NCBI GenBank assembly: GCA_947646735.1
Contig: CANTFK010000343.1
Span: forward strand, 1 to 64,000
Direction of reading: 5' to 3'
Length of the DNA stretch: 64,000 nucleotides
Origin: Peronospora farinosa
Lineage: Eukaryota; Oomycota; Peronosporomycetes; Peronosporales; Peronosporaceae
The position numbers were made by a program, and so were the translations under genes. The notes below the pieces were generated by a model. It was not told where the DNA came from. It saw only the letters and a program-made list of their open reading frames with translations, and did not search any database. Below, one piece after another: positions 7,415-46,659 of this stretch; the stretch's first letter is position 1, and each line of letters starts with the position of its first letter.

Positions 7415-7427
7415 CCCTAAACCCTAA
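7415..7427 (-). promoter_or_regulatory. Telo-box-like motif upstream of eL42
   Basis: CCCTAAACCCTAA on the plus strand, containing AAACCCTAA, about 155 bp upstream of the eL42 ATG. Telo-boxes of this sequence are a known promoter element of ribosomal protein genes in plants. The same heptamer (TTTAGGG) is a telomere unit. Its role here is inferred from position only. Confidence 0.4.
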
Positions 7428-14402: not shown

Positions 14403-14451
14403 TGTGAAATGTCGACCACTACGGTGAGAAAGAGAGACTTGGACTTGAGAT

Positions 14452-14468
14452 TGTCAAATGAAAAATGG
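14452..14468 (-). promoter_or_regulatory. Oomycete Inr + FPR core promoter of the GH54 gene
   Basis: On the minus strand the stretch reads CCATTTTTCATTTGACA, about 50 bp upstream of the GH54 ATG. It closely matches the oomycete initiator plus flanking promoter region consensus (YCAWTYY-N-CAWTTTNYY). This places the transcription start there and supports an oomycete host. Confidence 0.7.
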
Positions 14469-16201
14469 TCTGTGGAGTGAGCCCGACATTTACTGCCTCT
14501 CGTCGCCACCAACAAAATAAGTGTCTCTTCAATTCTCCTGCACGAAGAAAGCGATGGGAGCTTTGCGTTGCTGGCGCATGCTCGATCAGAGGGATGGTAA
14601 GTCCTTGATAAACTATGTTGCATCACCAAAAATACTCACGATTTATTATGAATGGCCATGTAAGTTTGGCTCTTGGTACAGAATAACGCGTATCATAATA
14701 TGAACAAACGTTTCTACCGATAGTTGTAAATTGCAAACATTTTCTCTTCATAACAACATTCACTTCTCAACGAGTAAGAAAGAAAGCCAGTCCGAAAACT
14801 CATACATTCGGACATGATTTATGCATGCAGCGGCAGTGTAGCCAGAATTAGTGATCAAAGAAGGATCCGAGCTCTTTGAGTGCGACTCGTGTTAAGAGAT
14901 TTACACGTCAAGCAGCGGCTACATCAACCAGCTGCATCACCTAGTAACAAAGTATCCACTTATTTGTAGATAGCTCAAGCTGCGTTTCGCATAATTAACA
15001 GACTCGGGTTTTTGTTACCCGACAAATGAACATAATGGAAAGTGCAGTATCGGCTTCAGAGCTTCAACCTCTGCTAGAATGTTCTCGGGGCTTCTAGATG
15101 CTTCTTTGGATGTAATAAAATGCTCGGGTGTTTCGTACTTGGAATTTGACAAAGCCATAAACGAGAGGCCGAAACGCGTCTGGCATGCGTTAATATACGA
15201 GTCATTTATGTTAACTTTATTCTGGCTTCCTAACACATCGTGTGTCACGGAGCGCATTCTCATACGTTTTTCGCGATTCGTCTTCCCTTCGCATCAAATT
15301 TCAAGATGGAGTCATTGTGGCTGTTACACTGTTCAAGTGTAAAGCTTTCTGATCAGCTCGGCATTGGACTATACAGCTTGATGTCACTTTGTCGTGATGT
15401 AGGCGTTTACAATTATGTTGCGTTGACAATGACCTGATGTCATCCCGGGGTAGCAAAGTTTTGTTATTAGAAAGCACAGCAATAAAGTATGTCATGTTAA
15501 TAAATTAACGTTCGTGTAAACTGATTGAGTCCACACAATCATGTCCTCTACATACAACATATAGAACGACGATATCGTCAATGACATTGATACGATGTAC
15601 GTAGTCAGCGGATAAAATGTCAATAAAAGACAAAAAAATACGACATTAAAATAACTTATTTTGGTCAGGCAGACGGAGGAAATCATAGTCCTACTGTATT
15701 GCGTTTCAAATCTGTCTACTCATAATATCATTTTAAAACTTTTACAGAACCCCAGTCATTCTAAGCGAAAACGGACTATTATTTTAGTTAGAAAATATCT
15801 TTTTTGACAGGTCGGCAAGCTTTTGATTATACAGTGCAACACCTGTCACAGGTAAGATGCGACCTTACCTGATGGGCTAATGATGTGACAACTTAACAGA
15901 TGGGACGAGGCGACGGGATCGGGATCGGCACGAGGAATCATCAGATATCTTGACAGACGGGACCAGACGACGAGACCGTCTCATGGGACCATCGGGTGGT
16001 GATGGGCGGAATAGACGGGCGCTATAGGAAACAAGACGTGGTCTAGTTATAGTGCCGGTGAAGTGCATGTTGTAGTGTGTACAGAGAAAGCTAACTCCAA
16101 TATATTCACTATTACTTCTACCTCCTTTACAACAAGTGCAATATATTTACTACTTTTTATAGTTTTTTATCTACAGCCAGCCCAATTTCCACATCAAGGG
16201 C
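14469..16201. other. No gene recognised upstream of Gypsy A
   Basis: AT-rich flank with only short ORFs. An imperfect direct repeat of about 70 bp (around 15895-15985, GGGACnAGnCGACGnG core) is the only structure seen. Confidence 0.4.
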
Positions 16202-16206: not shown

Positions 16207-16804
16207 TGTAACATGGCATCTAGTTACACGTAAACATTAAGTAATATACTTAATGTTTGGTCTAAAAGTATCCATGATTACTTTTGACCTGTCACTTGGG
16301 TGCGATACACAAATGTGATTCACCCTCGTGAATGTGATATCCATATATGGATTCAACAGGGAAGGGATGACGCCAGTTGAAGCTTGGCATCGCGACGTCC
16401 CAGAAGGACGTCATTCGCAAGCTTAAATATAGATTTAAGATCATGCGATAGGATACGCTTCTAAAGAGTCGCGTATCCGATCTATATATATATAGCCAAT
16501 CAGTAGTTAAGCATATATTTAATTATAATTCATTAAATATAGCTCAGTCTTGAATTTGCTAAATCGAAAGCACCGCGCACGAGAAGCTCTAAAAGCTTCT
16601 GCGTGACGCCGGTGACTTCTTGCTTTAGAAGTTCGTTACACTCTCGCTTAAGCGAGAGGCAACTGGTGGTACGACTGCTTAAGCAGTCGACCAACCTCCC
16701 AACCACCCTCGCACGCGAAGGTAAGACGGTATAACCGCTTCCTCGCTTGTGCATAAGGTGTGTGCTAAGTAGCACGAGGCAAATTCGTAGAAGTGCCGTC
16801 TATA
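16207..16804 (+). repeat. 5' LTR of Gypsy A
   Basis: It starts TGTAACATGGCATC and pairs with 31994-32597. It contains perfect palindromes at 16641-16658 and 16672-16689 and several hairpins (for example around GACGTC near 16396-16412). The end is TCTATA where the 3' LTR has TCTACA, a C-to-T change in the terminal CA. Confidence 0.95.
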
Positions 16805-16806
16805 AT

Positions 16807-16814
16807 TGGTAGCA
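16807..16814 (+). other. Primer binding site of Gypsy A
   Basis: TGGTAGCA lies two bases after the LTR and is complementary to the 3' end of eukaryotic initiator tRNA-Met. Only eight bases match well. Confidence 0.6.
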
Positions 16815-16863
16815 CTAGTAGTCCTTCCCACGACCCGTCTCTCTGAGCGTGCGTGAGGTTAAG

Positions 16864-17911
16864 ATGGTCCTTAATATGGACTGGAGTGACTTCCCTCACC
16901 TCTCCCAACATCATAGGGAGTTGGCAGAGCATATGTGGACTTGGTGAACAAGCCCTGGTCAGCCTCTTGCATTGTCCTCCTGAGAAACATGTTGCTCAGC
17001 TGGAGCAATTTGAGGCGTTTGTGCTCGGACAGCGTAGAAACGCGTCCGAGGTAAACAGCCAAGCCACCGCTGAGTCCATCACTAAGACTCAGGATGATAT
17101 TTTGCGTGAGCAGGCACGTAATGAGGCGCTCAACAGGACTGTTGAGACGCTCTCTGCCCGGCCTGCTCAACCGAGGCCCATTCGGATGGACCCTCCAAGG
17201 TTCGATGGAACTAGCCCTCACACGATTGTTCACTGGCTATTAGCAGTGGAGAAATGTGGAGTGGCGCAGCTCATCGAAGACGACACCAGAATGGTGTCGT
17301 ATGCCATGTCCAACTTGCGTGGCAAAGCGTCAGAGTGGGCATACTCTGCGCTGATGGCTAATGCTGATGCATTTCCATCATGGGCGATCTTTAAGGCAAA
17401 GATTCGCGCCATGTATCAGCCGCCTTACAACGAGGTGTTGCTTATGGCGCGCTTCTTTGGAGCACGACAGGCGAAACGCTCTCTGCAAGAGTTTGTGCAG
17501 GAGATGCGTTCGCTGTCGGCTTCCATTAATGGGGAACCGATACCGGAACGTATCAAGGTGGCCACGTTCATGAATGGTCTATGGCACGGCCCATCGCGTC
17601 AGGCCCTTGTTAGAAAGGTGCCAATGACGATGGAAGAGGCAATTGACATTGCCTTAGTTGAGGAGCAATCTTACAACAGCGCCTCGGCGACAGCCTATTA
17701 CATGCCGTCGACCGAAAGGTCTGATGCCACTCCTATGGAGTTAGGCAATGCAGATGTGATCTGCTACAAGTGCGGCAAGCGAGGCCATATGATGGCTCGC
17801 TGCTACGCCAAGGTAGATGATGGTGCTAAGGCACCCAGCAAAAGGTCTCCCAACCCGAAGGGAGGTGCGACAAACCAGCGTGCACGACGCACGGGTTCAG
17901 AACCTGCTTAA
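16864..17911 (+). pseudogene. Gypsy A gag (capsid and CCHC nucleocapsid)
   Basis: The natural start is probably ATG 16864, whose frame stops after about 27 codons. The rest reads in the next frame to 17911, so an early frameshift breaks it. The capsid-like region contains PPRFDGTSPHTIVHWL and the LRGKASEWAY segment typical of retrotransposon gag. The zinc knuckle CYKCGKRGHMMARC lies at about 17761-17802. The product would form the virus-like particle and bind element RNA. Confidence 0.85.
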
Positions 17912-18050
17912 CATTGATCGGGAAATGTAGGAACTTAGTGGGGGCGGGATGCCCTACTGTTGCGGACTCTGAAGCTACCCTTAAGTTCAGAGTGGTCGAA
18001 CAAATGGGTAGCATAGTCCCTGAGGTTCCGAAAGGTCGGACCTCAACCCT

Positions 18051-19088
18051 TTGGTCTATAACGCTCGAGTACGAGGCTATGACCAAGTGATGACCCTTCT
18101 CGTTGATTCGGGTGCATCACAAAACTTTGTGAAACTCGCGGCTCTGAAAACGAGACCGGCGAGTTATGAGTCACTTTGCCAGGATGGCAAGCGAGAAGAG
18201 GCGGTCGTTCGTTTAGCGAACGGCGCGCTCGTCAAATCGGAGGGAGTTCAAGTTGAACTCGCCTTCAATTTTAGTGACTTCTCTTGTAAAGAGATTCTCA
18301 CAGTGCTCGGTATGGAGAGTCCGTATGACCTCATCCTAGGCATGCCTTGGTTGGCTAAACACCAACCATGGATAGACTGGCGTACATGCACAGTCGCTAA
18401 TCTATGCAGGACACCGGAAAGTATGTGCTCTTGCGAAATTTTTATGCGATTGATTTTGTGTCCAATACAGACGAGGGTGCGATGACGGTATGTCAATCGT
18501 CACCAGGTACTACCCAGCTCGAAAGGGGTGGTGCAGTTGGAAGTGCCCTGGCAGAAAGGCAGGTGACACATACTTCTACCCAGGTCGAACAGACTGGTGT
18601 AGTGAATGGGGCGATGACAGGTAGTCATGCGTCCAATGGTCCTGCACAGAGCCGAGAGCATGTGGAAGCTGATAGTGGTCTGACAAGAAGTCAAGTGCCA
18701 CTAGAACCGGCGCAGAGCCATGAGCCTGGTGCGGTTGGAAGAGCTGCTATAGAAACGACACCATCTTCCAGGTCAAAGGTCGTGGTGACTCGAACAACGA
18801 GCACAAGACGTACTAAGACGATCAAGGGCACGTCGAAACGAGTGACCCTTGTAACGTGTCTCGGTACAAGAGGACGGAACTACGAACGAGTTGTTCGAGG
18901 CCGTCGAAGACAAGATGCCGGAGGCATCCTCAGTTGATGTGCTCCAACTTGTCTTGGAATCTGCCGAGGAGATAGTAAATCTCTCGGAGATGAAGTGGGA
19001 TCTGTTCCTGTCCGAACTAAAGGAAGGAAAGATTCACGAGATAGTCGCACAAGTTCCAGAAGAGAACGTGGTGGACTGTTGCTCTTAG
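18051..19088 (+). pseudogene. Gypsy A aspartic protease and linker
   Basis: LLVDSGASQNFV carries the catalytic DSG triad. LILGMPWLAKHQPWIDW is the second half of the pepsin-like fold, with the W-L-x-x-x-x-P-x-I-D-W tail usual in oomycete Gypsy elements. It would cleave the Gag-Pol polyprotein. After 18485 the reading moves to other frames (18404-18937 and 18891-19088) through a Ser/Thr/Gly-rich linker that precedes RT. Confidence 0.8.
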
Positions 19089-20590
19089 TCCACAATGGAT
19101 GAGAGAGTCTTGGAGACCAACAAAAAGAAACGGTTCGCTTCTCAAGGCTGGGATGCCTTGAAGGACAGCCCGTTCTATGATGTTCTGTGGAAACACCGTA
19201 ATGTGTTTCCAGCAGAAGTGCCGAGCCGCCTACCGGCCGATAGGGGCATCAGGCGCCAGACTGACCTGTAACCTGGCACCTAGTATTGTGTGACCAGGAA
19301 GTGGCTGTTGCCGAAGGAACAAGTCGATTATATCGATGAGCTCTCGACAAGAGAGCCAAGGTAGGACATGTACGTGAGAGCAAGTCGCCTCACTGCAGCC
19401 CAACCTTCTGTGTGCGTAAAGCAACAGGTGGAGGGCGAGTTGTTCGTGCTTATAATAAACTGAACACGGCCACCATTTCGGCTCAAACGCCCATCCCGCG
19501 GAATGATGTTTTGTTGAATTCCATGGGAAAGTCAACTATCTTTTCCGCGTTAGATCTGAAGGATGGCTACTATCAAGTTCTCATGAGAGATACTGATGTA
19601 GCCAAAACGGCAGTAAGCACCCCATGAGGTATGCTGTGGGAGTGGCTTGTGATGCCACAAGGGTTGACTAATGCTCCAGCAACATTCAACCGAGTGGTGG
19701 CTTACGTGATGCGTCAGCACCGTGCCTACGCGCCCTATTACGTTGACGATATATTCGTGCATAGTAGGGCAGAGGACGGTCTGAGCGCAATAGAGTCGCA
19801 CAAGCGTCATTTGGACGCTGTGTTGCAGACTCTGGGTGACGCCCAATTATACGTGAACTTGCAAAAGTGCGTAATAGGGGTCCCCGAGATACCGGTACTG
19901 GGCTGCATCGTAGGTGCACATGGTTTACGAGCAGACCCAGAAAAGGTAAAGGCTGTAAAGGAATGGCCAGTCCCACGACATGTGAAGGATCTGCGCCAAT
20001 TCCTTGGGCTCGCTAATTACTTGCATAAGTACAGCAAGAATTATGCGGAGGGGACTAAGCCATTGTCTGATCATTTGAAAAAGGATACAGAATGGACTTG
20101 GTAAAAGGCGCAAGAAGATGCGTTCACATCAGTGAAGCAATCTCTTAAAGAGGCACCGGTATTGGCATTGCCAGATGCGGATAAGTCCTTTAGCGTCGTC
20201 TGCCATGCAAGCAATTTTGCAATAGGCAGCGCGCTCATGCAAAAGGATGACAACGGTGTTGACCGTGTCATTTCGTATCAGTCTCGGCTTCTTAAAATCG
20301 GCAGAGCTGAACTACCCTGTGCATGACAAGGAGCTACTTTCAATTAAGTATGCCCTTGTGAAGTTTCGGGTGCACCTCTTGGGCACCGAACCTTTTGTGG
20401 TTTATACGGATCACGCATCACTGCGGGCCGCTATAAATTCACCGCACCTCTCGCCGAGAATGGCGAGATGGCTCACATTCTTCTCTGAATTCAATTTTAA
20501 AGTTGAATATAAGCCGGGTAAGTCGAATGTCTTGGCTTACGCGTTATCGCGCAGACCAGACTTCGAGGCAAGACACCAGGAAATTGTGTC
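19089..20590 (+). pseudogene. Gypsy A reverse transcriptase and RNase H
   Basis: RT motifs in order are RKATGGGRVVRAYNKLN, ALDLKDGYYQV, the GMLWEWLVMPQGLTNAPATF palm entry, and the catalytic YVDD box (19739-19750). A TGA at 19625-19627 and a TAA at 20102-20104 interrupt the frame. A frameshift near 20300 leads into RNase H (YPVHDKELLSIKYAL, VYTDHASL, MARWLTFFSEFNFKVEYKPG). In VVCHASNFAIG the first RNase H Asp is His, another inactivating change. Confidence 0.85.
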
Positions 20591-21720
20591 TCGTGCTAAA
20601 GAACAAGATGAGTCGTCAACATTGGCAGCCATGAAGGCCTACCATGTGACGAGCTCAATGGCCTCGGATAGAAAGGAGTACTACAGTCAGGCGGAACATT
20701 GTCGCCTGCTGTTGGATCATTTTGGTGGACGAAAGGTTACCCTTCCGTCGCACTTGAAAGCGAAGTTAAATCGCTTTAGTTACAGTGATGGCCTGTTATG
20801 GCATCAACTGTCACCCTGTGATCCCTTGAGAATCTATGTCCCTCATGACACAGATCTCAAGCTGATGATACTTCACGAGTGCCATGATGCGCCATCTAAT
20901 GGGCATTGGGCCGCAAAAAGACATTCTTACGAGTGTCAGAGGAATTTTGGTGGCCCCACCTATATCGGTGGGTGGCCAACTATATTCGCTCTTGTGAAGA
21001 GTGTCAGCGCATAAAGCCTGCACCTTCAAACAGTGCGCCACTGAAGCCACTGACAATTCCAACTGAATGTTGGAAGTCGGTCGGTTTGGACTTCATGTTT
21101 GGCTTACCGCCTGACCATAAAGGCAGGACGGGGCTCGTCGTCTTTGTAGACAGACTGAGCAAGATGGTGCATTTGGCACCATGTAGCACCAAGATCTCAG
21201 GAAAAGAGGCTGCCCTCTTGTTCCTGGATCACGTGTATCGACTACACAGGATTCCCGAGTCCATAGTATCGGACCGGGATCCGCGTTTTACGTCGGGTTT
21301 TTGGCGACATGTGTTCGAGCAGCTGGGTAGCAAGCTCCACATGTCAACCGCTGATCATCCCCAGACCGATGGCCAAACAGAACAGGCCAATCGAGTCGTG
21401 GTGGATGTGATGCGTACAGTAGCGACTCCCAAAGAATGGAGCAAGCAATTGCCGTTCGTGGAGTTAGCTACTATTAATAACAGTGTTCACGCCAGTATGG
21501 GTGAAACACCGTTTTACATTAACGGACTGCGTCATCCTCGAACGCCAGTCTCGTTTGTACGCAGCTCGAGTCTTAGTGGGGGAGGGCCCCTCACTTCGCT
21601 CGGTGCAACTGCCAAAGAGGGCCAAGGTTGCCCTAGTGACACTGCTAATTTAGCAGTGTCACGACACCTATAGGTGTCACAGAGGAGGCACGGCAAGAAA
21701 TGCCAGTGCTCCTTGATGAT
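20591..21720 (+). pseudogene. Gypsy A integrase core
   Basis: The HHCC zinc domain (HECHDAPSNGH with CEECQRIK) spans a frame change near 20910-21000. The catalytic core has GLDFMFGLP, VSDRDPRF and GQTEQANR, giving D-D-35-E intact. After about 21590 the frame runs into inverted repeats (21636-21662 and 21663-21678) and ends at 21673. Confidence 0.85.
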
Positions 21721-21783
21721 GACACTATAGTGTTATAAACAGCGTCGACCCATGAACGACCTCTTGGAGGCGTCATCGGCGAG

Positions 21784-22359
21784 CTGGATGCTAAAATCGT
21801 GAGCGAAGCTCAGCGCTTTGTGGATGAGCGATTAGCCATCACACGTAAAGTCCGTGACGCGATGGCAAGCGCACAGGACAAGCAAAAACAATATGCAGAC
21901 CAGCATGGTCGCAAAAACAATGAACACTTTAGTATGGGGGACAAAGTGCTATTAAGTACTGCTACCATACCTAAACATGCAATTCCTGTACTACCTGGTG
22001 GTACTACTAAGCTATTGTCCCATTTCATTGGGCCCTTTACAGTGGTTGAAGAAGTTGGAGACCTAAATTATAGGCTCACTCTACCACCGTATATGAAGAC
22101 GCACCCCGTATTTTACGTGGGTCGTCTGAAACGGAATGTTGATCCAGAAGAGATCACATATCCGCATCGGTCTAACGAGACCGATGGTGACGCCGACTGT
22201 GAGTCGAGCGTCGCGACCGATCAGGCGACGAGGAAGCCGAGAGGCTCCCCGTGTATGAACGAGGCGATAGAGGACTCGGTGATCGAGGAGGACTCCGCGC
22301 TTGACGCGGGTCTCTCATCACCAGTCGCTCTAAGATGTCCAAGCGGGTCATACCCCTGA
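21784..22359 (+). pseudogene. Gypsy A integrase C-terminal region (GPY/F-like)
   Basis: SEAQRFVDERL, then GDKVLLSTATIPKHA, then FIGPFTVVEEVGDLNYRL and HPVFYVGRL form the SH3-like integrase tail that binds DNA. No chromodomain follows. The end is acidic and Ser-rich, and its last ~139 bases overlap the antisense ORF on the other strand. Confidence 0.8.
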
Positions 22360-23615
22360 CGGTCCCTCGTCCTCACATCGCGCAGATCCAAAGTCAGTCG
22401 CGAGACTTGACTCTCGAGATCTGTCACCTGTCTCTTCAGCGCAGCAGACTCAGCCTGCGACTAAACAGCAGTAGGGTAGGCAGCCGCGATTAGGTGGGCG
22501 TAATCGCCACTCCTATCGGGCGCCACCTGTGCTGGTGAACACGGAAGGGAACACGCGCTTCCTTGTTGGAAGGCTGTTGGCCCACCGGTTTGTGAAGAGA
22601 AAGCTCCAAATTCTTGTCCATTAGAAGGGTTACCCAACGAGCATTGACTCATGGGAGCCTGTTGACGCTTTGCGCGTCGACGTGCCTGGGCTGGTGGCTG
22701 CTCACTAGCAGAATCTCCAGCTACGCTCGCTCTGCTAGGTCCGGATGGACTAGCAGAAGAAGCGTAGCGAGAAATCAATTGGGGGTCGCTTACCACCCAA
22801 GATTTCATGCGCACGCTTCATGGCGAAGGGTGATTCGCTGCGACCGTTGTTTAGCTGCATCTATATGCAAGGTAATACGGCGCCGAAGTTCAGCTTCATA
22901 TTCGTCGGCTGTTTCGTTAGAACGCAGCACGACTGGAATTGGGAAAGCACGACCAAGTGCTTTGCCCTTCTTTTTCCACAAGGGGAAAGACGCTATAGAA
23001 TTTATGAGCGTCTATAGTGGCACGCTGCAAAAGCGCTGCGCTAGACCCATCCGAGTTCATCCACTCAGATGGAGGTGGCATTGGTGGCAAACCACCACTC
23101 ACGTAGCCGCCCTCGTGACTGCGGGCTAGTGAGGCCGAAGGTGTACTTGTTGGAGCTTTAAGCTCATACTCACCTGAGCCTGACTCTTCATTATGGATTG
23201 TCAAGGCATCAGCCTGAGGAGTCACATCTGATTGAGTCGCAACTGCTTCTTTCGAAGTAGCGCGCTCAGTATTAGTCGCTGCGCTCGTAGGCGCAGGCGA
23301 CGAGGCCTTACCTTCGCTTTCAGGAAGCATAGATGCTCCCTCGAGGACGGGTGCCTCAAATGATGGGTACATATGTCCCATCAATGCGCTTCGCTCATCT
23401 CCACTTTGGGGTGATGACAATGGCATGCTCTCATTGTAGTCTACAATGAGAGATGGATCTTCATCCACATTATAGTAAGATGTAAGATTTGTCTCAATGC
23501 CTGAGGCACTTTGCGACGACTGCGAATATTCGCGGCGCGTGCGCTTAGTGCTGGACTGCATGGGTGCTTTTGCAGGCGACTCATCAGCCTTACCATGTTT
23601 CGGTGGCATAGGCAT
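22221..23615 (-). pseudogene. Antisense ORF of Gypsy A (unknown protein)
   Basis: It starts at ATG 23615 (MPMPPKHGKADES), opposite to gag-pol and just inside the 3' end of the element. It is open to 22919 and its frame resumes for 22814-22461 and 22427-22221. About 90 nt between read in another frame (RSNETADEYEAELRRR), so two indels and a TAG (22458-22460) break it. Features are a basic KRTRR patch, an acidic/Ser-rich segment with DPSLIVDYNES, FPIPV, and a predicted coiled coil near the end (SAALKRQVTDLESQVSRLTL). No signal peptide or membrane segment was seen, so it is not Env-like. Relic E carries a recognisable homologue, which argues for a true gene. Function unknown. Confidence 0.65.
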
Positions 23616-23701
23616 CAAGTAAACTAAGTGGTGCGTTTTATAACGGCTCGCAAGTCTCTCTGTCTCCTAGGCGATGTTTTACAAAATGTAAAAATCGTTC
23701 T

Positions 23702-23715
23702 AAAACGGGGAATGG
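23702..23715 (+). other. Polypurine tract end of Gypsy A
   Basis: AAAACGGGGAATGG is purine-rich, ending where B is inserted. In the empty site it would abut the A 3' LTR now at 31994. It includes the left copy of B's TSD. Confidence 0.7.
23711..23715. repeat. TSD of Gypsy B, left copy (AATGG)
   Basis: It matches 31989-31993 (GATGG) with one transition. Confidence 0.8.
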
Positions 23716-24175
23716 TGTAACGGGGCGAGCCCGTTACATAATATTGACACTTATATGAAGTGTCGATAAAAATATTATTATATCTAATAATATTTGACAA
23801 TATTACCTTTTCTTATAATATTGTTCCTAGATCTCCTTGAAGTTGGAGATGCCCTCTCATTGGTTGATATGGGCCATCATATCAACCAACGCGCTGACCA
23901 TGACCGATGGACACGCGCAATGAGTGGAGGGCAAGTTGTCAACATACATAGTTGTAGTTTAATATAGTTAACATAGGTTATAACAGATTAGTTTTATTAA
24001 GATAGTTAACTATATTAAATAGAGTTTTCCTTTTTCCCTACTTCTAAGCGTTTGTTTAGAAGTAAAGCTTCCTCTGCCTCTTGTGTAAGAGAGGTAATTG
24101 AGGCACCTGCTTTCACTGTAATCAGTGAAAGTAGGCTATACTGTAATCAGTATAGTCGGAGGGTGCCCCGTTACA
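23716..24175 (+). repeat. 5' LTR of Gypsy B
   Basis: TGTAACGGGGCGAGCCCG at the start and CCCCGTTACA at the end; the first 23 bases form a TGTAACGGG/CCCGTTACA hairpin. Two further hairpins with the same GTAATC loop (stems CTTTCACT and CTATACT) lie near 24112-24156. Confidence 0.95.
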
Positions 24176-24177
24176 CC

Positions 24178-24185
24178 TGGTAGCA
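24178..24185 (+). other. Primer binding site of Gypsy B
   Basis: TGGTAGCA two bases after the LTR, complementary to the initiator tRNA-Met 3' end as in element A. Confidence 0.6.
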
Positions 24186-24189
24186 CTTC

Positions 24190-25397
24190 GTGGTCCGTTC
24201 AGCGACCACCGCACCACCCGCTATGGAATCAGCGGGTGATGAATGTCATCACGCAACGCGTGATGATTTCCGCCATTTGAGTGACCTCGAATGGAATGCG
24301 GTTCAGCGTATGGCTGAAACCATCGGCAACCCTGCCGTTGGTGCCATGTTGCTCTCTCTTAGCGGAGACGACCAACATGCAACCATCGCCAAGTTCATAC
24401 AACATGAACTTGACGAAGTCGTAAAGAAACTCACCTTGCTAGAGGAGCAAGGTTCTCAACAGGTTGAACTGTTGAGAGAAAAAGGCGCTCAACAAGCTGA
24501 CTTGTTGATGCAGCAGGGTGCTCAACAGTCTGAACTGTTGAGACAACAGCAGGCTAGTGCTGTTGCTGCCGGGTCGACGTATGCACGTCGACCTGAGTCC
24601 TTGAAGATTGATGTCTCCAAGTACAAGGCAGTCGAAAGTGACTCCTTGTTGAGATGGTTCGTCGAGCTCGACGATGCCATTGAGGCTCGTCGCATCGATG
24701 AAGATGCGATGAAGGTCAAGTTCGCCATGTCAACCTTGGCAGGACGTGGGTCTTAGGGCTCAAACTGCACGACCCATACGTTTTCCCAACGTATGACGTC
24801 TTCAAGGCGCGGCTCAAACACACGTTTGAACCGCCTCGCGCCGAATTCAGGGCTCGGGCTGAGCTCCTGGATTTGAAACAGGGTAAGCGTGATATACACG
24901 CTTACGCCCAACACGTACGATACCTCGTTAGCTGTATCGTTCTGAACCCAATCGATGAACACACGCAGGTTACTGTGTTCATCAAGGGTCTGACAGATGG
25001 TCCTGTCAAGACCCACCTGTTCCGCTTGGAGCTAGAATCGCTGGATCAAGCGATCTCTGCAGCGGAACAGGAGGACTTTAGCCTGCAACAGGCTCACGTC
25101 CACTCGGGGTCCTATCGTCCACCGAGACGACAGGAGGGCGGAGGTCCAGAAACAATGGACCTCTCCTATGTAGAAAGCGAGCGACCTCGCTCTCCAGGGT
25201 ACAAGCGATTGCAAAAGTGCAATCGCTGTCAGAAGTTGGGCCACTACGCTTATGAGTGTAGTGCCCCACGCCAAGTGTCTCGAAACACTGGGAGTGACGA
25301 TCGACCGTCTGCCAAGAAGGGCCAGAGACGTGGGTCCCACGTTGCTGCGAAATCGCAACAACGTGGTGGACCATCAAAAAACGGTCGGGGTCAGTAG
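24190..25397 (+). pseudogene. Gypsy B gag
   Basis: Opens at 24190, where the encoded start lies five bases after the primer site. A helical repeat region has four copies of a QGAQQxELL-like unit (about 24445-24545) that should form a coiled coil. One frameshift near 24750 separates it from the second half (LGLKLHDPYVFP, then FRARAELLDLKQG) ending at 25397. The zinc knuckle CNRCQKLGHYAYEC lies at about 25219-25260. One indel breaks an otherwise open gag. The helical repeats correspond exactly to tandem DNA hairpins. Confidence 0.85.
24433..24593. repeat. Six consecutive perfect hairpins in gag
   Basis: Stem/loop lengths are 8/5 at 24433-24453, 9/6 at 24454-24477, 8/4 at 24489-24508, 8/6 at 24521-24542, 7/8 at 24544-24565 and 9/4 at 24572-24593. 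The first two abut. All stems are perfect. Confidence 0.9.
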
Positions 25398-25539
25398 GGG
25401 CGGAGCGACCTACTGATCCAGCAACGTCAAGAGAGTTCGCGGGACTCTTGACGAAGGTTGCTCCCAACACACAGTCACTGTGTGTTGCCGCTCCCAGTGA
25501 TGAGGTATCCCTCATCACATTGAAGATCGAAGTGACAAA

Positions 25540-25919
25540 GAACATGTCACTTCGCGCCCTAGTTGATTGTGGGGCTTCGAACAATTTGTTCGACGCCAAT
25601 CGCTAGATGATCGTAGGCTCAAATATGTTGAGCGCGAGACCCCTCCAACGAGGATGACGGTGCGCCTTGCAACTGGCGCATCCGTAACAGTAAAGAAACG
25701 TGTAGTGGGAATTCACTACACGCTTGAAGGCAAACAGTACGATGATGATTTCATCGTACTTGATCTGGATGACAAATTTGATGTCATCCTAGGATTACCA
25801 TGGCTCAGAAGGTACGAGCCATGGGTCAGCTGACAGCATCGAACCGTGAAGATGCCTGCCGCTTGTTCATCAGATGGCCATCTGATGAATGTCTTGGAGC
25901 GTTCACAAGCGTAAGAATG
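25540..25919 (+). pseudogene. Gypsy B aspartic protease, DCG-type active site
   Basis: LVDCGASNN at about 25560-25586 puts Cys where aspartic proteases have Ser or Thr (D-S/T-G). A frame change follows almost at once. Then come RMTVRLATGASV and FDVILGLPWLRRYEPWVS, the second half of the fold, with a TGA at 25831-25833 before the expected Trp. The DCG form is either a natural variant of this lineage or a mutation. A and C keep DSG. Confidence 0.75.
25699..25889. repeat. Consecutive hairpins in protease
   Basis: Perfect stems: 9 bp at 25699-25722, 9 bp at 25737-25759, 8 bp at 25767-25789, 8 bp at 25798-25824, and a 24-bp perfect palindrome at 25866-25889. Confidence 0.9.
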
Positions 25920-26196
25920 TACTACGAGTGAGTGTGATGGCCTCACTTGTGGTTCGGTCGTTAGTACGACTGCACAAGAACTCAGCGTGACAGACAGTCA
26001 CGCTGTGGAGCAAGCTGCCGGCGGCTGTGCACAAGCACAGGCAGCGCCGAAGGTCCACCGCTCGAATAAGTCGAGTGGACCGGGACATGAATGCTCGCCT
26101 AGAGGGCAGCATTCATCAAAGAGTAAACCGGTTGCCCAGAAGTGGCAACACGGTAATCCTAGATCAACTGGAGAGTAGATCGTAGAGGATCTCGCT

Positions 26197-27328
26197 GTGG
26201 TTGCGCCACCACAGCTAGAGGAAGTCGATGGAACAGGTTCCATCGAGCCTGCGGGAATAAGTCCCCAGGAAATAATCACTGAGGGAATAAGTCCCCAGGA
26301 GGAAACCGAGACGTTGAACGTCTTGGTTAATGACGGATCAAGCGTAGGCGCTTATACACTTGATCTGATCGCGCCTCCGAAGTTAACTTCGGAGATAACT
26401 CAGTTGCCTACGCTAGAACCTAAAAGGTTCTTGCGTGATCTGCGTAGTGGCAAAGTCAAGCAGATCTGTGTGCTCGTCGCAGAGGACGAGTACATGACTG
26501 ACATTCGGTCAGCATCAGTTTTTGCTGAGAACAAACGGGTTCTCAGCAGCTCATCAATGGACGAGAGTGTCCTTGATGAGAAGACTCGGATTGAGCGATA
26601 TACATCGCAATCCTGGAAGTCACTGAAGTCAAATCCTTTTATTTTGGTCTAATTCAAGGATGTATCCCCTGAATCCGTACCGTGCGAGCTGCCTAAGGAT
26701 AAAGGTACTCGACACGAGATCGACCTTGTTCCTGGCACAAAATATTGTGTCATGAAGCAGTGGCCACTGCCTCGGGAACAGGTCGAGGCGATCGACAAGT
26801 TCTTTGCCGATCGCCTAGCAGCGGGCCATGTGAGGGAGTCAACTTCACCTCACAGCTCTCCGACCTTCTGTGTGCGCAAGGCCACAGGAGGGTGGCGGAT
26901 AGTGCACGCGTTCAATAAGTTGAACGCTGCAACGATACCGGCGCAAACGCCGATACCGAGAAAGGACGTAATCATAGATGGTATGTCTAAGAGTACCATC
27001 TTTTCGTCCATGGATCTGATGGATGGTTTCTATCAGATCCTAATGCGTGAACGGGACATCCCGTACACAGCAGTGAGCACTCCTAGTGGTATGCTCTGGG
27101 AATGGTTGGTGATGCCGCAAGGGCTTAGTAATGCACCAGCCACATTCAATAGATGTGTTTCACATCTATTGAGACCGGTGCGCGAATTCGCACCGAGTTA
27201 CTTCGATGATGTGTTCGTCCATAGTCGGGCTATGGACGGGAAAACAGACGTGGAAGTCCATAGACTCCACGTCCGTAAGGTTCTTACACTTTTGCAAGAG
27301 CATAAGTTGTACGCCAACCTCAAGAAGT
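26197..27328 (+). pseudogene. Gypsy B linker and reverse transcriptase, first part
   Basis: Linker 26197-26652 ends at TAA, and the same frame continues through DLVPGTKYC and the RT entry KQWPLPREQVEAID. Motifs are RKATGGWRIVHAFNKLN, SMDLMDGFYQI, GMLWEWLVMPQGLSNAPATF and the catalytic FDD in SYFDDVFVHSR. The RT thumb is cut at LYANLKK by a foreign 131-bp insertion. In one hairpin here (27146-27172, 12-bp stem, 3-nt loop) the encoded CVSHLL replaces the more usual residues of relatives. Confidence 0.85.
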
Positions 27329-27457
27329 ATCGATTAGTCGCAGTCAGTTCTCTACGTTCTTTTTCAAACATACTCCTCACTGCTCCTCCTTTGCACGCCG
27401 TAGCATGTTTCGTTGCCGCTGCACGCGACCTTGCCGTCACGAGAGGCAGCTCAAAAT
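27327..27457. mobile_element. 131-bp insertion in the Gypsy B RT, unknown origin
   Basis: It splits the RT thumb between NLKK and CIFAASEIPLLGCIVG. It is flanked by near-identical direct repeats CTCAAGAA (27319-27326) and CTCAAAAT (27450-27457). No hairpin tiling is seen inside, unlike the surrounding element. It is pyrimidine-rich on the plus strand at 27345-27390. It may be a MITE or SINE fragment; no terminal repeats were seen. Confidence 0.55.
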
Positions 27458-29244
27458 CTGCTGTATATTCGCAGCTAGCGAAATACCACTTCTTGGGTGC
27501 ATCGTCGGAAAGAACGGCGTACGCCCTGATCCAGAAAAGATCAAGGCGATCACCGACTGGCCAGTGCCAGTCGATGTCAAGGGACTAAGGAAGTTCCTTG
27601 GGCTAGCGGCGTACTTGCACAAGTGCTCGCGCAATTACGCCGAAATGACAGTACATCTTTCTTGTTTACTCAAGAAAAATGTAAAGTGGAACTGGAACGC
27701 TGATTGTCAGCGTTCCTTTGAACGTATCAAGCAAAGCTTGATGCAATCGCCAGTATTGGCGATTGCCGATCAAGACAGACCATTTCATGTGGTCTGTGAC
27801 GCCAGTGATTTTGCAATCGGCTGTGCACTGATGCAATATGATACCGACGGCGCCGAGCGTGTCGTCTGTTATCAATCGCGTCATCTGCAACCGGCTGAGC
27901 GCAATTACCCGGTGCATGACAAGGAACTCCTTGCCATGAAGTATGCACTGGCTAAGTTTCGCGTCTATCTCTTAGGAGATAGACCGTTCATTGTATATAC
28001 AGACCATGCGTCACTACGCACGGCTGTAAATAGTCCACACCTCTCGCAACGAATGGCGAGATGGTTGTCATTCTTCGCGGAGTACAACTTCTCCGTGGAG
28101 TATAAGCCGGGACGACTTAACGTCGTCGCCGATGCCCTCTCACGTCGGCCTGACCTAGAGCCGACTGTGCAATCCGACAGTGATGTGAACACCACTGTCG
28201 CCAAGCTAAGTACCAGCGTCTTGTCGTCGAGTTTAATCGACGACATTAGAAGGGCATGCGCACAAGATAATGATCTTGTACGCCTGATGGAGTACCTCAA
28301 GGACCCATCTACGCAAGCTAAGAAGCGCTTGCCTGCCATGTATCGATCTTCTCTCGATCGATATACCCAGCGGGACGGCTTAATGTACTACACAGCCGTC
28401 AACAACGACACGCCTCGTGTCGTTGTACCGCCACAACATGATCTCAGGTTACGGATCATGTTTGAATGTCACGATGCACCAATAATTGGGCATCGCGGCC
28501 GTGAGAAAACTTACCTCACGGTCAGTCGCGACTTTTACTGGCCACGCCAGTATAAGTTTGTGCGCAAGTACGTGCGTGCTTGCGAGGTGTGTCAACGAGT
28601 GAAGCCTAGTACTTCACTCCGTGCACCATTGCAGCCTCTACCTGTTCCGGCAGAGTGCTGGGAGTCCGTATCAATGGACTTCGTCTTTGGGTTTCCCAAA
28701 GACGCTCACGGGAATAATGGTATTCTCGTGTTTGTAGACAGGTTCAGCAAGATGGTACATCTTGTTGCTGTACCTGAGTCGATCGCAGCAGAGGGCTGTG
28801 CTCGAGTGTTTATCGATACAATCTTTCGATTGCACGGTTGCCTCCGTGAACTTGTGTCCGATAGGGACCCCCGGTTCACGGCTGAGTTTTGGCGTTCCGT
28901 GTTCCAAACACTTGGAACACGGCTCACAATGTCTACTTCTGACCATCCAGAAACCGATGGTCAGACTGAACGCGCCAATCGCGTCCTCGAAGAGATTTAT
29001 TCGAGGGTACGTCCACTCGTTTACGAGTTGGAGTGAGTTCTCGTCGATGGTCGAATTCGCCATCAACAACTCCGTGCATGCTTCCACGACGCATACACCG
29101 TTCTACGTGAATGGCCTTCGCCATCCACGTGTCCCCACCTTAGTAGAGGGTGACTTTTATATAAGGGGGGGAGGACTCGCTCGAGCGAGAACCAATCTGG
29201 ATCTTGCTCATCACGCGACGACGTTATGGTCGACGCGAAAGTAA
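27458..29244 (+). pseudogene. Gypsy B RT end, RNase H and integrase
   Basis: One frame is open from about 27458 to 29036. The RT connection is KFLGLAAYLHKCSRNY. RNase H has VVCDASDFAIGCALMQ with its Asp kept, NYPVHDKELLAMKYAL and VYTDHASL. The integrase zinc domain is FECHDAPIIGHRG with CEVCQRVK. The core has SMDFVFGFP, VSDRDPRF and GQTERANR with D-35-E intact. A frameshift near 29000 moves reading to the frame of FSSMVEFAINNSVHAS and TPFYVNGLRHPR, ending 29244. RNase H and core catalytic residues are all present, so the element was recently competent apart from these indels. Confidence 0.88.
27694..27797. repeat. Consecutive hairpins in RNase H
   Basis: Perfect stems: 10 bp/3-nt loop at 27694-27716, 7/3 at 27726-27742, 10/4 at 27743-27766, 8/7 at 27775-27797. 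The second and third abut. Confidence 0.9.
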
Positions 29245-29816
29245 CCGAAGTCGTACCATTCGACTTCGGTGAAGAGGAAGAAAGTAAGAGCGATGACGCT
29301 CTTACTGACAACGATGCTGAAGATATCAGCATCGTTCGAGGTATCACAAGTGAGAACAGTAATGTTCTTACTGAATTAGTAACCGATATATCTGCAGTGC
29401 ATTTACAATGCACTGCAGCCAAAAGCAACGAGTCAGCTGAGTATTTCCTGCTGACTCGTGAAGCGGTAGTCCGTTTCGTGCAAGATTCCATCGCGGAAGC
29501 GGTGGATAAGCAAAAACGAAACGCAGACAATAATGGAAGGGCAAATGGTCAGACATTTATTGAAGGAGACTTAGTTTTACTGTCAACAGTAAACCTACCT
29601 AAACATGTAGTGACTAACGTGGGCAGCAATAAATTGTTGCCCAAGTACATCGGCCCATTTCGTGTATTGCGCCGCCTAGGCAACGCATACACGATCGAGT
29701 TGCCACGCAGGATGCGTACGCATCCTACGTTTTACGTGGGACGTCTTCATCCGTACGTTCAGTACGCGGCTTCTTCGAACGACGAAGATAGCCGTTATTC
29801 TCAAAAATCCCCTTGA
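29226..29816 (+). pseudogene. Gypsy B integrase C-terminal region
   Basis: An acidic linker is followed by a helix (VRFVQDSIAEAVDKQKRNAD), GDLVLLSTVNLPKH and YIGPFRVLRRLGNAYTIEL with HPTFYVGRLHPY. This is the GPY/F-type DNA-binding tail. It stops at TGA 29814-29816 and a frame change leads to the chromodomain. Confidence 0.8.
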
Positions 29817-30021
29817 GATTCTTGTTGTCACGAACCAGATTCGATACCTGGTCGTGTAGAGATGAGATCGTCCCATGATACTGGACGATCTCCTGACGAG
29901 CTGTCGCCAGCTCGTTACTTAGAGAATGAAGCCGCCGTTCATTCTCCAATAGTGCGACAGCATTGTTTGCCCGAGACTTCTCGTACTCAAGCCCAATATG
30001 TAGCATATTGTCCTTTAAGCG

Positions 30022-30384
30022 GTGACACTTATACCGCTCGTGAATCAACATCACAACGTAGCTCACGAGTTACACAAGCAAACCCGTCTAACTCAGCAGA
30101 CAAGTCCGATGGAAGAATCGGACAGGGTTTTCCCTCCACCACCGCATCCGCTGGTGGACTCCCATGGTGGGAAGCGCTTCCTCGTGAACCGCTTGCTAAA
30201 GCACCGCGAGGTGAAGGGACGTCGGACGAGTTATCTCGTCCGGTGGCGTGGCTATCCGCCTTCGGCGGATAGCTGGGAACATCAGGCCCAACTGATGGGC
30301 GACGTTCCCGGCCTTTCGACAGTACGACAAGGGGCACCCGATGGTGAAGGACCATCGGAAAACGAGCGCCCAGCGCGTTCGTAA
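30022..30384 (+). pseudogene. Gypsy B chromodomain
   Basis: KRFLVNRLLKHREVKGRRTS with YLVRWRGYPPSADSWE is a clear chromodomain: the aromatic positions of the methyl-lysine cage, then the W-R-G-Y and S-W-E motifs. Chromodomains on Gypsy integrases steer insertion to heterochromatin marked by methylated H3, which would favour the element-into-element nesting seen here. Confidence 0.85.
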
Positions 30385-30939
30385 AGGGATTGCAAAGTAG
30401 CAATTCCTTCACGCATCTCGGAAGAGATGCTAGCCCTCCACCAGGTCTCAGTAAGGAGGTACGCCTCCTTAGGCGCTCTTGACGAGGTGCTCAGGCACCC
30501 CGGGCATGGGTCGCCCCAAGAGAGGCATAACAGGCCTGACTCTCTAGATAACCGGTGCAAACGATAGCATGCACCGGAAGTACTTCGTTTCTCAAACTTA
30601 TTGCGGATAGCATAAAGTCTTTGAAACCAAGCCTCTTTCCCAACGTTTAAAACGTTGGTGATAAACGCGTTCCAAGATTGGAGGAACGCGTCGGCCTCAC
30701 GCTTCTTGTGTGGGCCATACCATCGATGTTCAAGGAACACATCGATGTAATAATCGTTCTCAGTGCGAAAGTTCTTCGCACTGGCGTCAAGGCCATGAAG
30801 CTTTGACGCATGAAACAACGGTATGGGGAACCGTTCGTTGGTCTTTTCAGACCAACGATCAAGCAGATGCTTAGGTAGCATCCATGGCTTGCGATCAGGA
30901 GCAAGACGCAATACGTTGCGGTCTAAAGCCTCCTGCGTG

Positions 30940-31038
30940 GTGTCAACAGAAGTACCGACACCACGAGCATTAGTGTCAACAGAAGTACCGACACTATGAG
31001 CATTGATGTCAGTAGAAGCACTGACATCACCATTACGG
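30940..31038 (-). repeat. Three 33-bp tandem repeats in the B antisense ORF
   Basis: Units begin at 30940, 30973 and 31006. Each unit is itself a hairpin (GTGTC...GACAC type stems), and on the minus strand each encodes an 11-residue repeat. Confidence 0.8.
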
Positions 31039-31513
31039 TCCCCACCCGAGTCACAATCCTTCGACTCGTTTGGCGAGTCGTCTGATTCATCAGACGACCC
31101 GAACATTTCACGGTACATTGATTCACTCAATGTACCACGATCTCTCTTCGTAGCATTAGACGACGAGGTATCACCCCGGGGAGAGCCCGGGAGTGACACA
31201 GGTGGCTTTGAGTCGGATGCGTCATCCGACTCACCAGAGTAGTCAACGACTAACTCTGGGTCAACATCTTCACGTACGTGAACCTGCAACAGGCGTTGCA
31301 GGCTGATGTTGATTTGCAGCAGACACATTAGTGTATGCTGGCTGAGGCTGTGAATCCTAAGTAGCGGCTGCACACAGGCGTGCAGCCGAGCTCTCGGCTG
31401 CCTTAGCAGCCACGCGCATTGACTTTGTCATAGCGTAATTGTTGAATGAAAGGAAATTCAACAAGTTCTCCTTTCCCATAGTCACTAAACAGTCACTAAT
31501 GTGACTGTTGGTT

Positions 31514-31526
31514 GAGAGGGGGGTGA
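31514..31526 (+). other. Polypurine tract of Gypsy B
   Basis: GAGAGGGGGGTGA lies directly before the 3' LTR, the primer for plus-strand synthesis. Confidence 0.8.
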
Positions 31527-31988
31527 TGTAACGGGGCGAGCCCGTTACATAATATTGACACTTATATGAAGTGTCAATAAAAATATTATTATAACTAATA
31601 ATATTTTGACAACATTACCTTCTCTTATAATATTGTTCCTAGATCTCCTTGAAGTTGGAGATGCCCTCTCATTGGTTGATATGGGCCATCATATCAACCA
31701 ACGCGCTGACCAATGACCGATGGACGCGCGCAATGAGTGGAGGGCAAGTTGTCAACATACATAGTTGTAGTTTAATATAGTTAACATAGGTTATAACAGA
31801 TTAGTTTTATTAAGATAGTTAACTATATTAAATAGAGTTTTCCTTTTTCCCTACTTCTAAGCGTTTGTTTAGAAGTAAAGCTTCCTCTGCCTCTTGTGTA
31901 AGAGAGGTAATTGAGGCACCTGCTTTCACTGTAATCAGTGAAAGTAGGCTATACTGTAATCAGTATAGTCGGAGGGTGCCCCGTTACA
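31527..31988 (+). repeat. 3' LTR of Gypsy B
   Basis: A near-identical copy of 23716-24175 with intact TG...CA ends. Confidence 0.95.
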
Positions 31989-31993: not shown

Positions 31994-32597
31994 TGTAACA
32001 GGGCATCTAGTTACACGTAAACATTAAGTAATATACTTAATGTTTGGTCTAAAGTATCCATGATTACTTTTGACCTGTCACTTGGGTGCGATACATAAAC
32101 GTGATTCACCCTCGTGAATGTGATACCCATATATGGATTCAACAGGGAAGGGATGACGCCAGTTGAAGCTTGGCATCGCGACGTCTCAGAAAGACGTCAT
32201 TCGCAAGCTTAGATATAGATTTAAGATCATGCGACAGGATACGCTTCTAAAGAGTCGCGTATCCGATCTATATATATATATATATAGCCAATCAGTAGTT
32301 AAGCATATATTTAATTATAATTCATTAAATATAGCTCAGTCTTGAATTTGCTAAATCGAAAGCACCGCGCACGAGAAGCTCTAAAAGCTTCTGCGTGACG
32401 CTGGTGACTTCTTGCTTTAGAAGTTCGTTACACTCTCGCTTAAGCGAGAGGCAACTGGTGGTACGACTGCTTAAGCAGTCGACCAACCTCCCAACCACCC
32501 TCGCACGCAAAGGTAAGACGGTCTAACCGCTTCCTCGCTTGTGCATAAGGTGTGTGCTTAGTAGCACAAGGCAACTTCGTAGAAGTGCTCGTCTACA
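31994..32597 (+). repeat. 3' LTR of Gypsy A
   Basis: Starts TGTAACAGGGCATC and ends TCTACA. It pairs with 16207-16804. A TA dinucleotide run near 32272-32286 is longer here than in the 5' LTR. Confidence 0.95.
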
Positions 32598-32602
32598 ACT
32601 TC
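32598..32602. repeat. TSD of Gypsy A, right copy (ACTTC)
   Basis: Perfect match to 16202-16206. Confidence 0.95.
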
Positions 32603-39617: not shown

Positions 39618-40948
39618 TGTGGCGAAGTGAAGGAGTGAATTTCGCCAAGTGTGATCGCATTTTTTCGGTTAAGTCCGAAATGGCCAATATTAATGAGTCG
39701 CGATCTCGTGGCCAATATTGATGAGTCGCGATCTCGCAGAAAGGTTTCAAGACGATGTCAAATAGGATGGAAAACAGTGAATGGAGTAGTTTGCACTTCT
39801 ATGTGGGGTCAAATATGGCCTAGAAACTACGCTATTGCGATCTCCAGTATTTCCGATGGCGATCCGCGTGAACGCGGTCGCTAAGGAGGAAGATGGGTAC
39901 ATCCAAGCATGTGGAGGACGGTCTGGTGTGGATCACGTCGCTATGGAGGACTGGAAAGGTGGATATGACATGTCACATAGATGAACTATCTCACATGACC
40001 TGAGAAACGGTGAAGAGGACAAGTCATGATCCGGCGGATCGCGATCCGATGCTAATTATTAGTATCGCGATCCGATATTAATTATTAGTACCGCGATCCG
40101 ATATTAATTATTTAGTATCGCGATCTGGTATTAATTATTTAGTACCGCGATCTGGTATTAATTATTTAGTACCGCGATCTAGTATTAATTATTTAGTAAC
40201 GCGATCCGATACTAATTATTTAGTACCGCGATCTGGTACTAAAATGGTATTATATCCGAGCGAGGTAGCGATCCAGATCGCGGCGATATTGGAGTGGACC
40301 ACATTACAAGATCTGATTTTTCCGAAAGGGCGATACGTGGCAACAGATCCTGAGCTACAGATAGCCAAGATCATAGGTTTTGGTATTTGATTGGTCAACA
40401 TTAACAGAGTTCAATTTGCTTCTAAGTACACGTGTCGACTTCTCTTCCGGGCTGGATTCTTTGGCCTCCCGACGTCTCAAGGAAGTCTACCTACTACGCA
40501 AGTCATATCCCTGGATTGTTTGGCCAGGGATTGCAAGAATTCTCAACAAAACAAATCAAGCTGCGATTGGACGCAGAGGACTAAGAAGTCCAGATACAAG
40601 ATCGCGAGACGGCTCAAGTGGTCAGAAGGCAAGCGGATCAAGTATCTACATTTTTGGACAAGGCGATCTCAAGGGAGATCAGGGCGACTCAAATAGAGCA
40701 CCCCAATAACAACTGCGATCTTGTGAGGAATTCCACGCGATCGCCCCCCCCCACCTATCCCTAACACAATCAAGTTCAACATCGACTCAAGTCTACCGAG
40801 AAGAGAGCAACCCGCCCTACCGACGGGTACACAAGGTGAGGAAGGCTATACACACGGAATCGGGGTACCCCCTCCGTTAGTCGGTCGTCCGGGCGCCAGT
40901 GGAGAGTTGGGATCGCATCAGCAATTTTGCGAATCCCACTCCACCACA
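39618..40948 (+). repeat. 5' LTR of Gypsy D
   Basis: Starts TGTGGCGAAG and ends CACCACA. Contains a tandem array (about 40047-40240) of a 27-28-bp unit around CGCGATCCGATATTAATTAT, some seven copies, and many GATC sites. Confidence 0.95.
40047..40240. repeat. Tandem array in D 5' LTR
   Basis: Unit: GCGATCYGRTAYTAATTAT(T)TAGTACC-like, with single-base variation. The matching array in the 3' LTR is 52083-52275. It may act as enhancer or be a replication-slippage product. Confidence 0.85.
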
Positions 40949-43144: not shown

Positions 43145-43543
43145 TGGAAGAATTCTACAACATGATACGCAAGTGGTATGTCCCAACCAAGCATGCTGGA
43201 ATGCTTCCGCCGAAGGCTGAAAAAATGTTAAACTAGGACGCTCGCCAGGTTGGAATCTGGTACGAGCCGAGCGTTCTAGGCTCTGCATTTATGCATTTGT
43301 GGAAAGAAGATCGACAGATCAGGGCTTTAACACTCAGATCGACACGAATAATACATGTGAAGATTCAAAATTTCTGCGTTCAATATCAAGCGTCGTAAGA
43401 GTTGATGAATATGCCCGATCGCTTGCGAAAATGAAGCTCGACTTAGCACCAGTTGAATCACGCGGATATTGGAAATATCATACCCCAGGAAAATGGTTCA
43501 AGCAAGCCAAGGCAACGGGCAAGATCAACAATGAAAGGCGAAT
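43145..43543 (+). other. Gypsy D gag-protease junction
   Basis: Broken coding remnant. A knuckle-like region continues after 43144, and 43299-43604 encodes a basic segment with SRGYWKYHTPGKWFK leading to the protease. Frame changes prevent a single reading. Confidence 0.5.
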
Positions 43544-44788: not shown

Positions 44789-44805
44789 CCGGAGGAAGTG
44801 TAAAG

Positions 44806-46392: not shown

Positions 46393-46659
46393 TCTCGCGA
46401 GAGATTAAAGTTTTTACGCGGTTCTCGACGATGGCCTGGTTGGTGCAATCCTCCGGTCTCAATGGCAGGCTAGGTAGGTGGGCCGCATTATTATCGACCT
46501 GGACTTTGGAGATCAAGAAATGTGAAAAGGGCGAAGATGAAATACTTGGTGCCCTGGCTGCAAGTGTGACTCCCCGTGAAGAAGTCGATGAAGTGTTGAT
46601 TGCGATCGCTCCCCGGAAACAGCCAAGGCAAACTCTAAGTATGCCACCGCCTACGGTGG

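Follow-up and report, generated by a model that had tools for sequence, protein, structure and literature searches.

In some RNA viruses, genome-scale ordered RNA structure is found throughout the coding sequence. Template switching, a mutation mechanism, has been described to create and repair perfect stems, complete inversions of loops being very rare in the part of the study considered here (Monttinen and Loytynoja 2022, PMC8794818). The part considered here of another study cites hairpin-linked microinversions of chloroplast DNA, and gives no link to stem-loops for its own avian hotspots (PMC3123225). Here, we describe Gypsy B, which we classify from its sequence features as a Ty3/Gypsy chromodomain long terminal repeat (LTR) retrotransposon, at positions 23716-31988 of a 64,000-nucleotide window of the oomycete Peronospora farinosa (assembly GCA_947646735.1, contig CANTFK010000343.1, positions 1 to 64,000, forward strand). 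As in the viruses, structure is present throughout its coding sequence, here as short perfect hairpins, and in the copies of the B family template switching is seen to write such hairpins.

Hairpin excess in Gypsy B and its relatives

Only perfect hairpins were counted, the counts for Gypsy B span the whole element including both LTRs, and the control consisted of 30 dinucleotide shuffles. In Gypsy B, stems of 8 bp or more with loops of up to 15 nt number 99, compared with 1.6 in the shuffles (maximum 5), which is about 60-fold over chance. The excess was also present when loops were limited to 8 nt (79 versus 0.63, maximum 5) and among stems of at least 10 bp (34 versus 0.13) or at least 12 bp (6 versus 0). 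Codon-preserving shuffles, 200 for each reading-frame segment, all remained below the observed number of stems in 6/6 segments: the RNase H-integrase segment holds 14 stems (shuffle mean 0.6, maximum 3), and the antisense frame at 30285-31427 holds 16 stems of at least 8 bp (0.58, maximum 5); one shuffled segment, 26179-27328, was not open over its full length. Clearly, the dense perfect inverted repeats that a preliminary description had noted in this element, coding frames included, are real, and their excess survives both kinds of shuffle, which rules out chance and base composition as the cause. Folding of the RNA in windows of 150 nt, suggested in the same description, agreed with this, with a mean z of -5.0 in Gypsy B (28 windows) versus values near 0 in the host genes at 1-15900 (+0.24, 53 windows) and in gypsy C (-0.20, 32 windows).

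When one LTR is counted (7,811 bp), the 116 hairpins with stems of at least 7 bp cover 2,697 bases and lie at a mean centre spacing of 68 bp, with gaps of up to 280 bp, so the initial impression of a stem every 25-40 bp was too strong. Each of the 14 places listed at that time does have a perfect stem, 7-12 bp long with 0-9 nt in the loop, and one 10-bp stem with a 2-nt loop was found in the region around 31070-31100, for which two had been proposed. The stem range of 7-13 bp given there holds up to 12 bp, the length of the longest short-loop stem; there is no 13-bp one. With loops of up to 60 nt allowed, each LTR also has a 15-bp stem with a 32-nt loop. The excess over shuffles is roughly level from 5 to 9 bp and drops above 10 bp, and the density of stems is 8.9-13.2 per kb in the coding parts versus 15.2 per kb in the LTR.

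The 46.85-Mb assembly of the same genome contains 258 candidate loci, 40 of which, including the copy in the window, were scored; these match a 1.5-kb piece of Gypsy B at 92-100%. Two loci, L023 and L026, contain large amounts of unrelated sequence; they were dropped from the tests of folding and G-U pairs, shared stem variation, pair sharing and clusters, and masked in the counts of change rates. Twenty other copies of the B family carry 57-117 stems each; the counted loci extend into short flanks and, for L023 and L026, take in the unrelated sequence. Moreover, a stem was found at 133 places in one or more of these 21 copies, the window copy included, and 109 of the places have it in at least 11 copies. 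The hairpin excess is a trait common to the B family.

The density of stems of at least 8 bp differs widely among the elements of this genome, in a small sample that covers 3 kb each of H, I and J: it is about 12 per kb in B, 3.7 in H and I, whose reverse transcriptase (RT) is 72-73% identical to that of B, 3.4 in E, 2.0 in A, 0.9 and 1.5 in two copies of G, 0.7 in J, 0.3 in F and 0.19 in C, with 0.38 in host genes. J, F and C, as well as the host genes and one G copy, have values inside their own shuffle range. Gypsy C (39618-52986) is a different Gypsy of the window, with repeated ends that are 99.2% identical and no hairpin excess, and thus a natural control. Family G has an internal tandem repeat with an 87-bp step (positions 2269-2755 of L029). 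No relative was found among viral contigs in one scan with six peptide patterns.

Loop inversions and inverted copies in sister elements

Comparison of 25 copies revealed 10 hairpins whose loop occurs in both orientations, giving 12 loop pairs in total, with a single hairpin contributing three (for examples, see Table 1). An alignment of the 3' region of 51 copies gave 6 such hairpins, 2 of which overlap with the 25-copy set, making 14 in all. As a control, plain reversal gave 0 matches in the 25-copy set and 1 in the 51-copy set; plain complement gave 2 and 1, respectively, these being the loops ATTA and AA, in which complement and reverse complement coincide. At least three bases are changed in 9/12 of the inverted loop pairs. 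A pairwise scan for exact reverse complements with at least three changed bases gave 10 versus 0 versus 1 matches, and 9 versus 0 versus 2, some of the reverse complements lying outside hairpin loops. The pairwise scan and the loop scan replaced a first inversion scan, which accepted only windows without any other difference and gave 2 matches versus 5 for plain reversal (0 versus 1 in the 3' set).

The minority orientation of a loop is assumed to be the derived one. Five carriers of inverted loops (L015, L019, L024, L027 and L028) have LTR pairs that are 99.1-99.8% identical. One of them, L028 (LTRs 99.6% identical), has three minority loop orientations, and the combination of near-identical LTRs with three inversions suggests that inversion occurs within the cycle of the element. 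At the hairpin 31365-31388, one further copy has a rewritten 5' arm that matches more of the 3' side.

Individual copies also have inverted copies of the sequence adjacent to them. L030 has two, of 29 bp (one arm present in 19 other copies) and 16 bp (14 others), L040 has one of 22 bp (15 others) and L035 one of 13 bp (42 others). An inverted copy of 20 bp in L032 has its arm in no other copy, and L033 has one of 10 bp; a 14-bp stem in L014 can be explained by two substitutions.

Origin of the array

We see about an even chance that the array originated through short-range template switching, which writes the arms, and protein selection, which filters them. A polymerase in the middle of copying would briefly copy the nearby complementary or nascent strand and then return, turning weak chance stems into perfect ones, inverting loops and sometimes adding an inverted copy. 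The step probably belongs to the element's own reverse transcription, given that host genes lack the excess and that its level varies strongly among families in the genome. Purifying selection on proteins would remove harmful events, so that arms survive where codons tolerate them, and point mutation would then erode the stems unopposed. Template switching would have built and would sustain the whole array by the same events as those seen, running at a much higher rate in the past. The preliminary description had offered it as one of two causes, the other being selection for structure, and the flipped loops and inverted copies support it.

The stems have no clear protein cost, as codons lying wholly in stems are conserved like non-stem codons in comparison with family G (amino-acid identity of 0.52 in 225 codons versus 0.53 in 844, p 0.82); the 136 codons that overlap stems partly gave identity values of 0.49 and 0.45. 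Another conceivable origin is the insertion of small palindromic elements, in line with the large number of hairpins and their scatter over the sequence. However, the hairpin sequences differ, only some of the single-copy events are insertions, and the arms of 31 stems in the pol part of B fall in codons aligned to family G, which contradicts such insertion for pol. We find this origin scarcely credible.

If the hairpins were instead kept by selection on the sense RNA, as a genome-scale ordered structure serving packaging, stability or escape from silencing, the very negative folding z-scores throughout Gypsy B would be accounted for, and G-U pairs would be expected to be tolerated in stems, as in the private one-mismatch stems (10 G-U versus 5 A-C). 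However, G-U did not exceed A-C among mismatches at the outer ends (25 versus 24) or inner ends (10 versus 16) of B stems, inside the stems (12 versus 13), in the interior mismatches shared by copies (5 versus 11) or among single changes in stems (110 versus 138). Both strands fold alike (p 0.48, 109 windows), and 2/22 tetraloops fit GNRA or UNCG (GGAA and TACG). The G-U and A-C counts and the equal folding of the strands reject sense-RNA selection as the sole cause. Private changes in stems are also unconstrained, with 0.135 per stem site versus 0.133 outside. A threefold lower change rate in B-defined stems was discarded as an effect of choice, because private changes are not depleted in the stems that the family has in common.

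The arms of stems had been expected to co-vary among copies if structure was selected, but none of the 375 changed pair-cells of B-defined stems in the 20 close-family copies was compensated (40 gapped cells were set aside). The sole exception is an LTR hairpin (24039-24064) in which three pairs are compensated in comparison with a diverged LTR; in L026, the second version occurs in one LTR, where it is confined to the 5' arm. Selection on the sense RNA as the cause of the hairpins is not supported, and we consider it very improbable.

Selection at the level of DNA, for example on the folding of single-stranded cDNA, or a demand for folding that is blind to position, with template switching supplying some of the stems, seems to us unlikely, though appreciably less so than a selected RNA. 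It draws on several observations that weigh against template switching as the origin of the array. The 3-5 long inverted copies in dated copies lead to a balance of about 0.1-0.2 stems per kb versus the 12 observed, so that the present rate of events is some 60-100 times too low to build the array; this estimate is crude, as short events are uncounted and, of the five events, L033 lies outside the 22 dated copies and L014 may be two substitutions. Stem length in the family stays between 7 and 12 bp, the loop mode being 4, and the inverted copies seen are mostly longer. Shared variation is greater in loops (26/599) than in stems (46/2088, p 0.006, the stems having been chosen as common). Identity between H and I is 0.774 inside H stems versus 0.716 outside, and B stem centres are common to H at 4/15 and to I at 3/14, where chance gives about 6%. 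Between B and I, pairs are complementary beyond the control (p 0.004), and there are 21 paired double changes versus 14 in the control (p 0.03), to which the compensated LTR hairpin can be added.

Further points that weigh against template switching are that private one-mismatch stems lean to G-U as given above and that hairpin pairs in B have no bias in orientation. Change of the arms was mixed, stems of B leaning toward one-sided change (p 0.045-0.23) and those of H strongly in the opposite direction. No loop was present in both orientations among 61 loop classes in 48 LTR rows (22 elements with both LTRs). Private multi-base clusters were templated by a reverse complement in 3/97 cases versus 6/97 for plain reversal, and in 0 versus 3 of 24 in the 3' set; this test missed the 29-bp copy of L030, because clusters had to match whole.

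Against selection on DNA stand the unconstrained private changes and the turnover of stems between families. Variation common to at least two copies occurs at 18 stem places, where much of it breaks pairs and some is in loops only, and it is not lower in stems than outside (p 0.15). One-mismatch stems number 39 in B versus 2.6 in shuffles, at least as many as the roughly 26 that neutral wear predicts. Between H and I, which are 72% identical in the aligned part, 2/15 aligned H stems are fully paired in I and 3/14 aligned I stems are fully paired in H, with 4 and 2 paired double changes versus 2.6 and 1.7 in the controls. None of three stems is common to B and G, nor any of three to B and J. 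These counts of shared stems among B, H, I, G and J indicate that few positions persist and most do not; the scarcity of same-placed stems in related families also speaks against the sense RNA.

An origin in host DNA replication, or in cruciform-mediated inversion of inserted copies, would make the array a feature of old chromosomal DNA rather than of the element cycle. In accordance with this, long inverted copies, among full-length copies, sit mostly in older ones (L030, L032 and L033), and microinversions linked to hairpins occur in chloroplast DNA, as cited in the part considered here of PMC3123225. In contrast, young copies share the stems with old ones, the host genes and gypsy C of the same window have no clear excess, inversions are present in copies with near-identical LTRs, and the LTR rows mentioned above contain no inversion, although few would be expected there. 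We regard this origin as improbable.

Returning to template switching, it is possible, and we propose it only tentatively, that in one oomycete Gypsy clade the RT, or the conditions under which it works, is so prone to foldback switching that the coding genome became a dense hairpin array with loops that still flip, a signature that would mark the enzyme lineage from sequence. If template switching did build the array, a mutation mechanism known from DNA replication would shape whole coding sequences of a mobile element, polymerase behaviour would be readable from genomes, and the presence in coding RNA of dense perfect stems, or even of changes in pairs, would not have to reflect selection for structure. 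If selection is responsible instead, Gypsy B would be a strong example of structure at the DNA level overlaid on a protein code. Whichever reading holds, the contrast between families inside one genome makes the cause testable.

Features of Gypsy B and comparison with known systems

The classification of Gypsy B is based on a TG...CA LTR pair (98.9% identity), a gag zinc knuckle that scores slightly below the Pfam cut-off, the order RT-RNase H-integrase, and a chromodomain behind the integrase. The flanking 5-mers, AATGG and GATGG, match at 4/5 bases in a direct reading of the element ends. Among the matches listed for the RNase H-integrase frame, the top protein carries the name of Peronospora effusa, at 95% identity. 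The RT, RNase H and integrase domains, described earlier as intact, do match Pfam, but the RT of the window copy is split by an insertion of about 133 bp, which is missing in 19/20 sister copies (the 20th, L023, has no alignment there) and in 4/4 copies of a second set.

Table 1. Coordinates of Gypsy B features in the window.
Feature	Position	Strand	Basis and remarks
5' LTR (TG...CA)	23716-24176	+	Self-alignment, ends; 15.2 stems of at least 8 bp per kb (7 over 461 bp)
Array of 116 perfect, non-overlapping hairpins with stems of 7-12 bp and loops of 0-15 nt (most often 4)	23716-31526		One LTR counted
LTR hairpin in two versions, both perfectly paired, differing at three pairs	24039-24064		Comparison with diverged LTR
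gag region, two overlapping frames: Retrotrans_gag and zinc knuckle	24184-25394	+	PF03732, E 1.2e-9; 13.2 stems of at least 8 bp per kb
Hairpin, loop region in both orientations in three versions (ATAC/GTAT, ATGC/GCAT, 12-nt)	24572-24593		Loop scan
Site of L030 inverted copy of adjacent sequence: 29-bp perfect stem, loop 5	25536-25571		Single-copy comparison
RT, first part	26653-27328	+	PF00078, E 2.3e-24; 10.4 stems per kb
Insertion of about 133 bp inside RT, particular to window copy	27329-27461		Comparison with sister copies
RNase H and integrase frame	27468-29033	+	PF17917, PF17919, PF17921, PF00665; 8.9 stems per kb
11-bp hairpin within integrase frame, with flipped loop in L015 (1 copy versus 21)	28402-28426		Loop scan
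Tf2-1-like SH3 domain frame behind integrase	29154-29813	+	PF24626, E 1.1e-15
10-bp hairpin, loop inverted in L031 (1 versus 18)	29283-29306		Loop scan
Chromodomain frame	30019-30381	+	PF00385, E 6e-11
Antisense open frame, 381 aa	30285-31427	-	No Pfam match; 16 stems of at least 8 bp
8-bp hairpin with 5-nt loop, flipped in L028 (1 versus 16)	30338-30358		Pairwise and loop scans
Hairpin, L050 is exact reverse complement including two flanking bases on each side	31281-31304		Pairwise and loop scans
9-bp hairpin, 6-nt loop inverted in L025	31365-31388		Pairwise and loop scans
3' LTR	31527-31988	+	Self-alignment, ends

In the region of the antisense frame, 8/24 other copies have a minus-strand open stretch of 404 codons, and a tandem repeat at 30934-31031 has units that carry hairpins with differing arms. 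Gypsy B is nested in another Gypsy, element A (16207-23706 with 31994-32598), the repeated ends of which are 96% identical. Elsewhere in the window, the minus strand at 10585-11736 has a frame with a weak match to elicitin (24 bits versus a curated cut-off of 25).

The preliminary description knew of no account of a retrotransposon coding sequence tiled with hairpins, and in agreement with that we found none in the open-access literature among the matches listed, the scope being titles and abstract openings, with subscription papers and preprints outside it. In the set and order of its domains, Gypsy B is the same as the Ty3/Gypsy chromodomain elements of oomycetes (Peronospora and Phytophthora). 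It differs by its density of about 12 hairpins per kb, six related elements of the same genome having 0.3-3.7 and gypsy C 0.19. Unlike the genome-scale ordered RNA structure of viruses, the hairpins of Gypsy B show no wobble preference on the sense strand, and their stems are short and perfect.

The template-switch mutations in the part considered here of PMC8794818 resemble those of the B family in that they comprise inverted copies of adjacent sequence, perfect stems made in one step and inversions of whole loops. The cases in that part are RNA genes under DNA replication, whereas in Gypsy B the events concern the coding frames of a retrotransposon, at very high density and probably during reverse transcription. 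The chloroplast microinversions cited in the part considered here of PMC3123225 are similar to those of B in that they are recurrent and involve a stem-flanked loop found in both orientations. In contrast to them, the B family has 14 such hairpins in one family of mobile elements, in addition to its hairpin excess.

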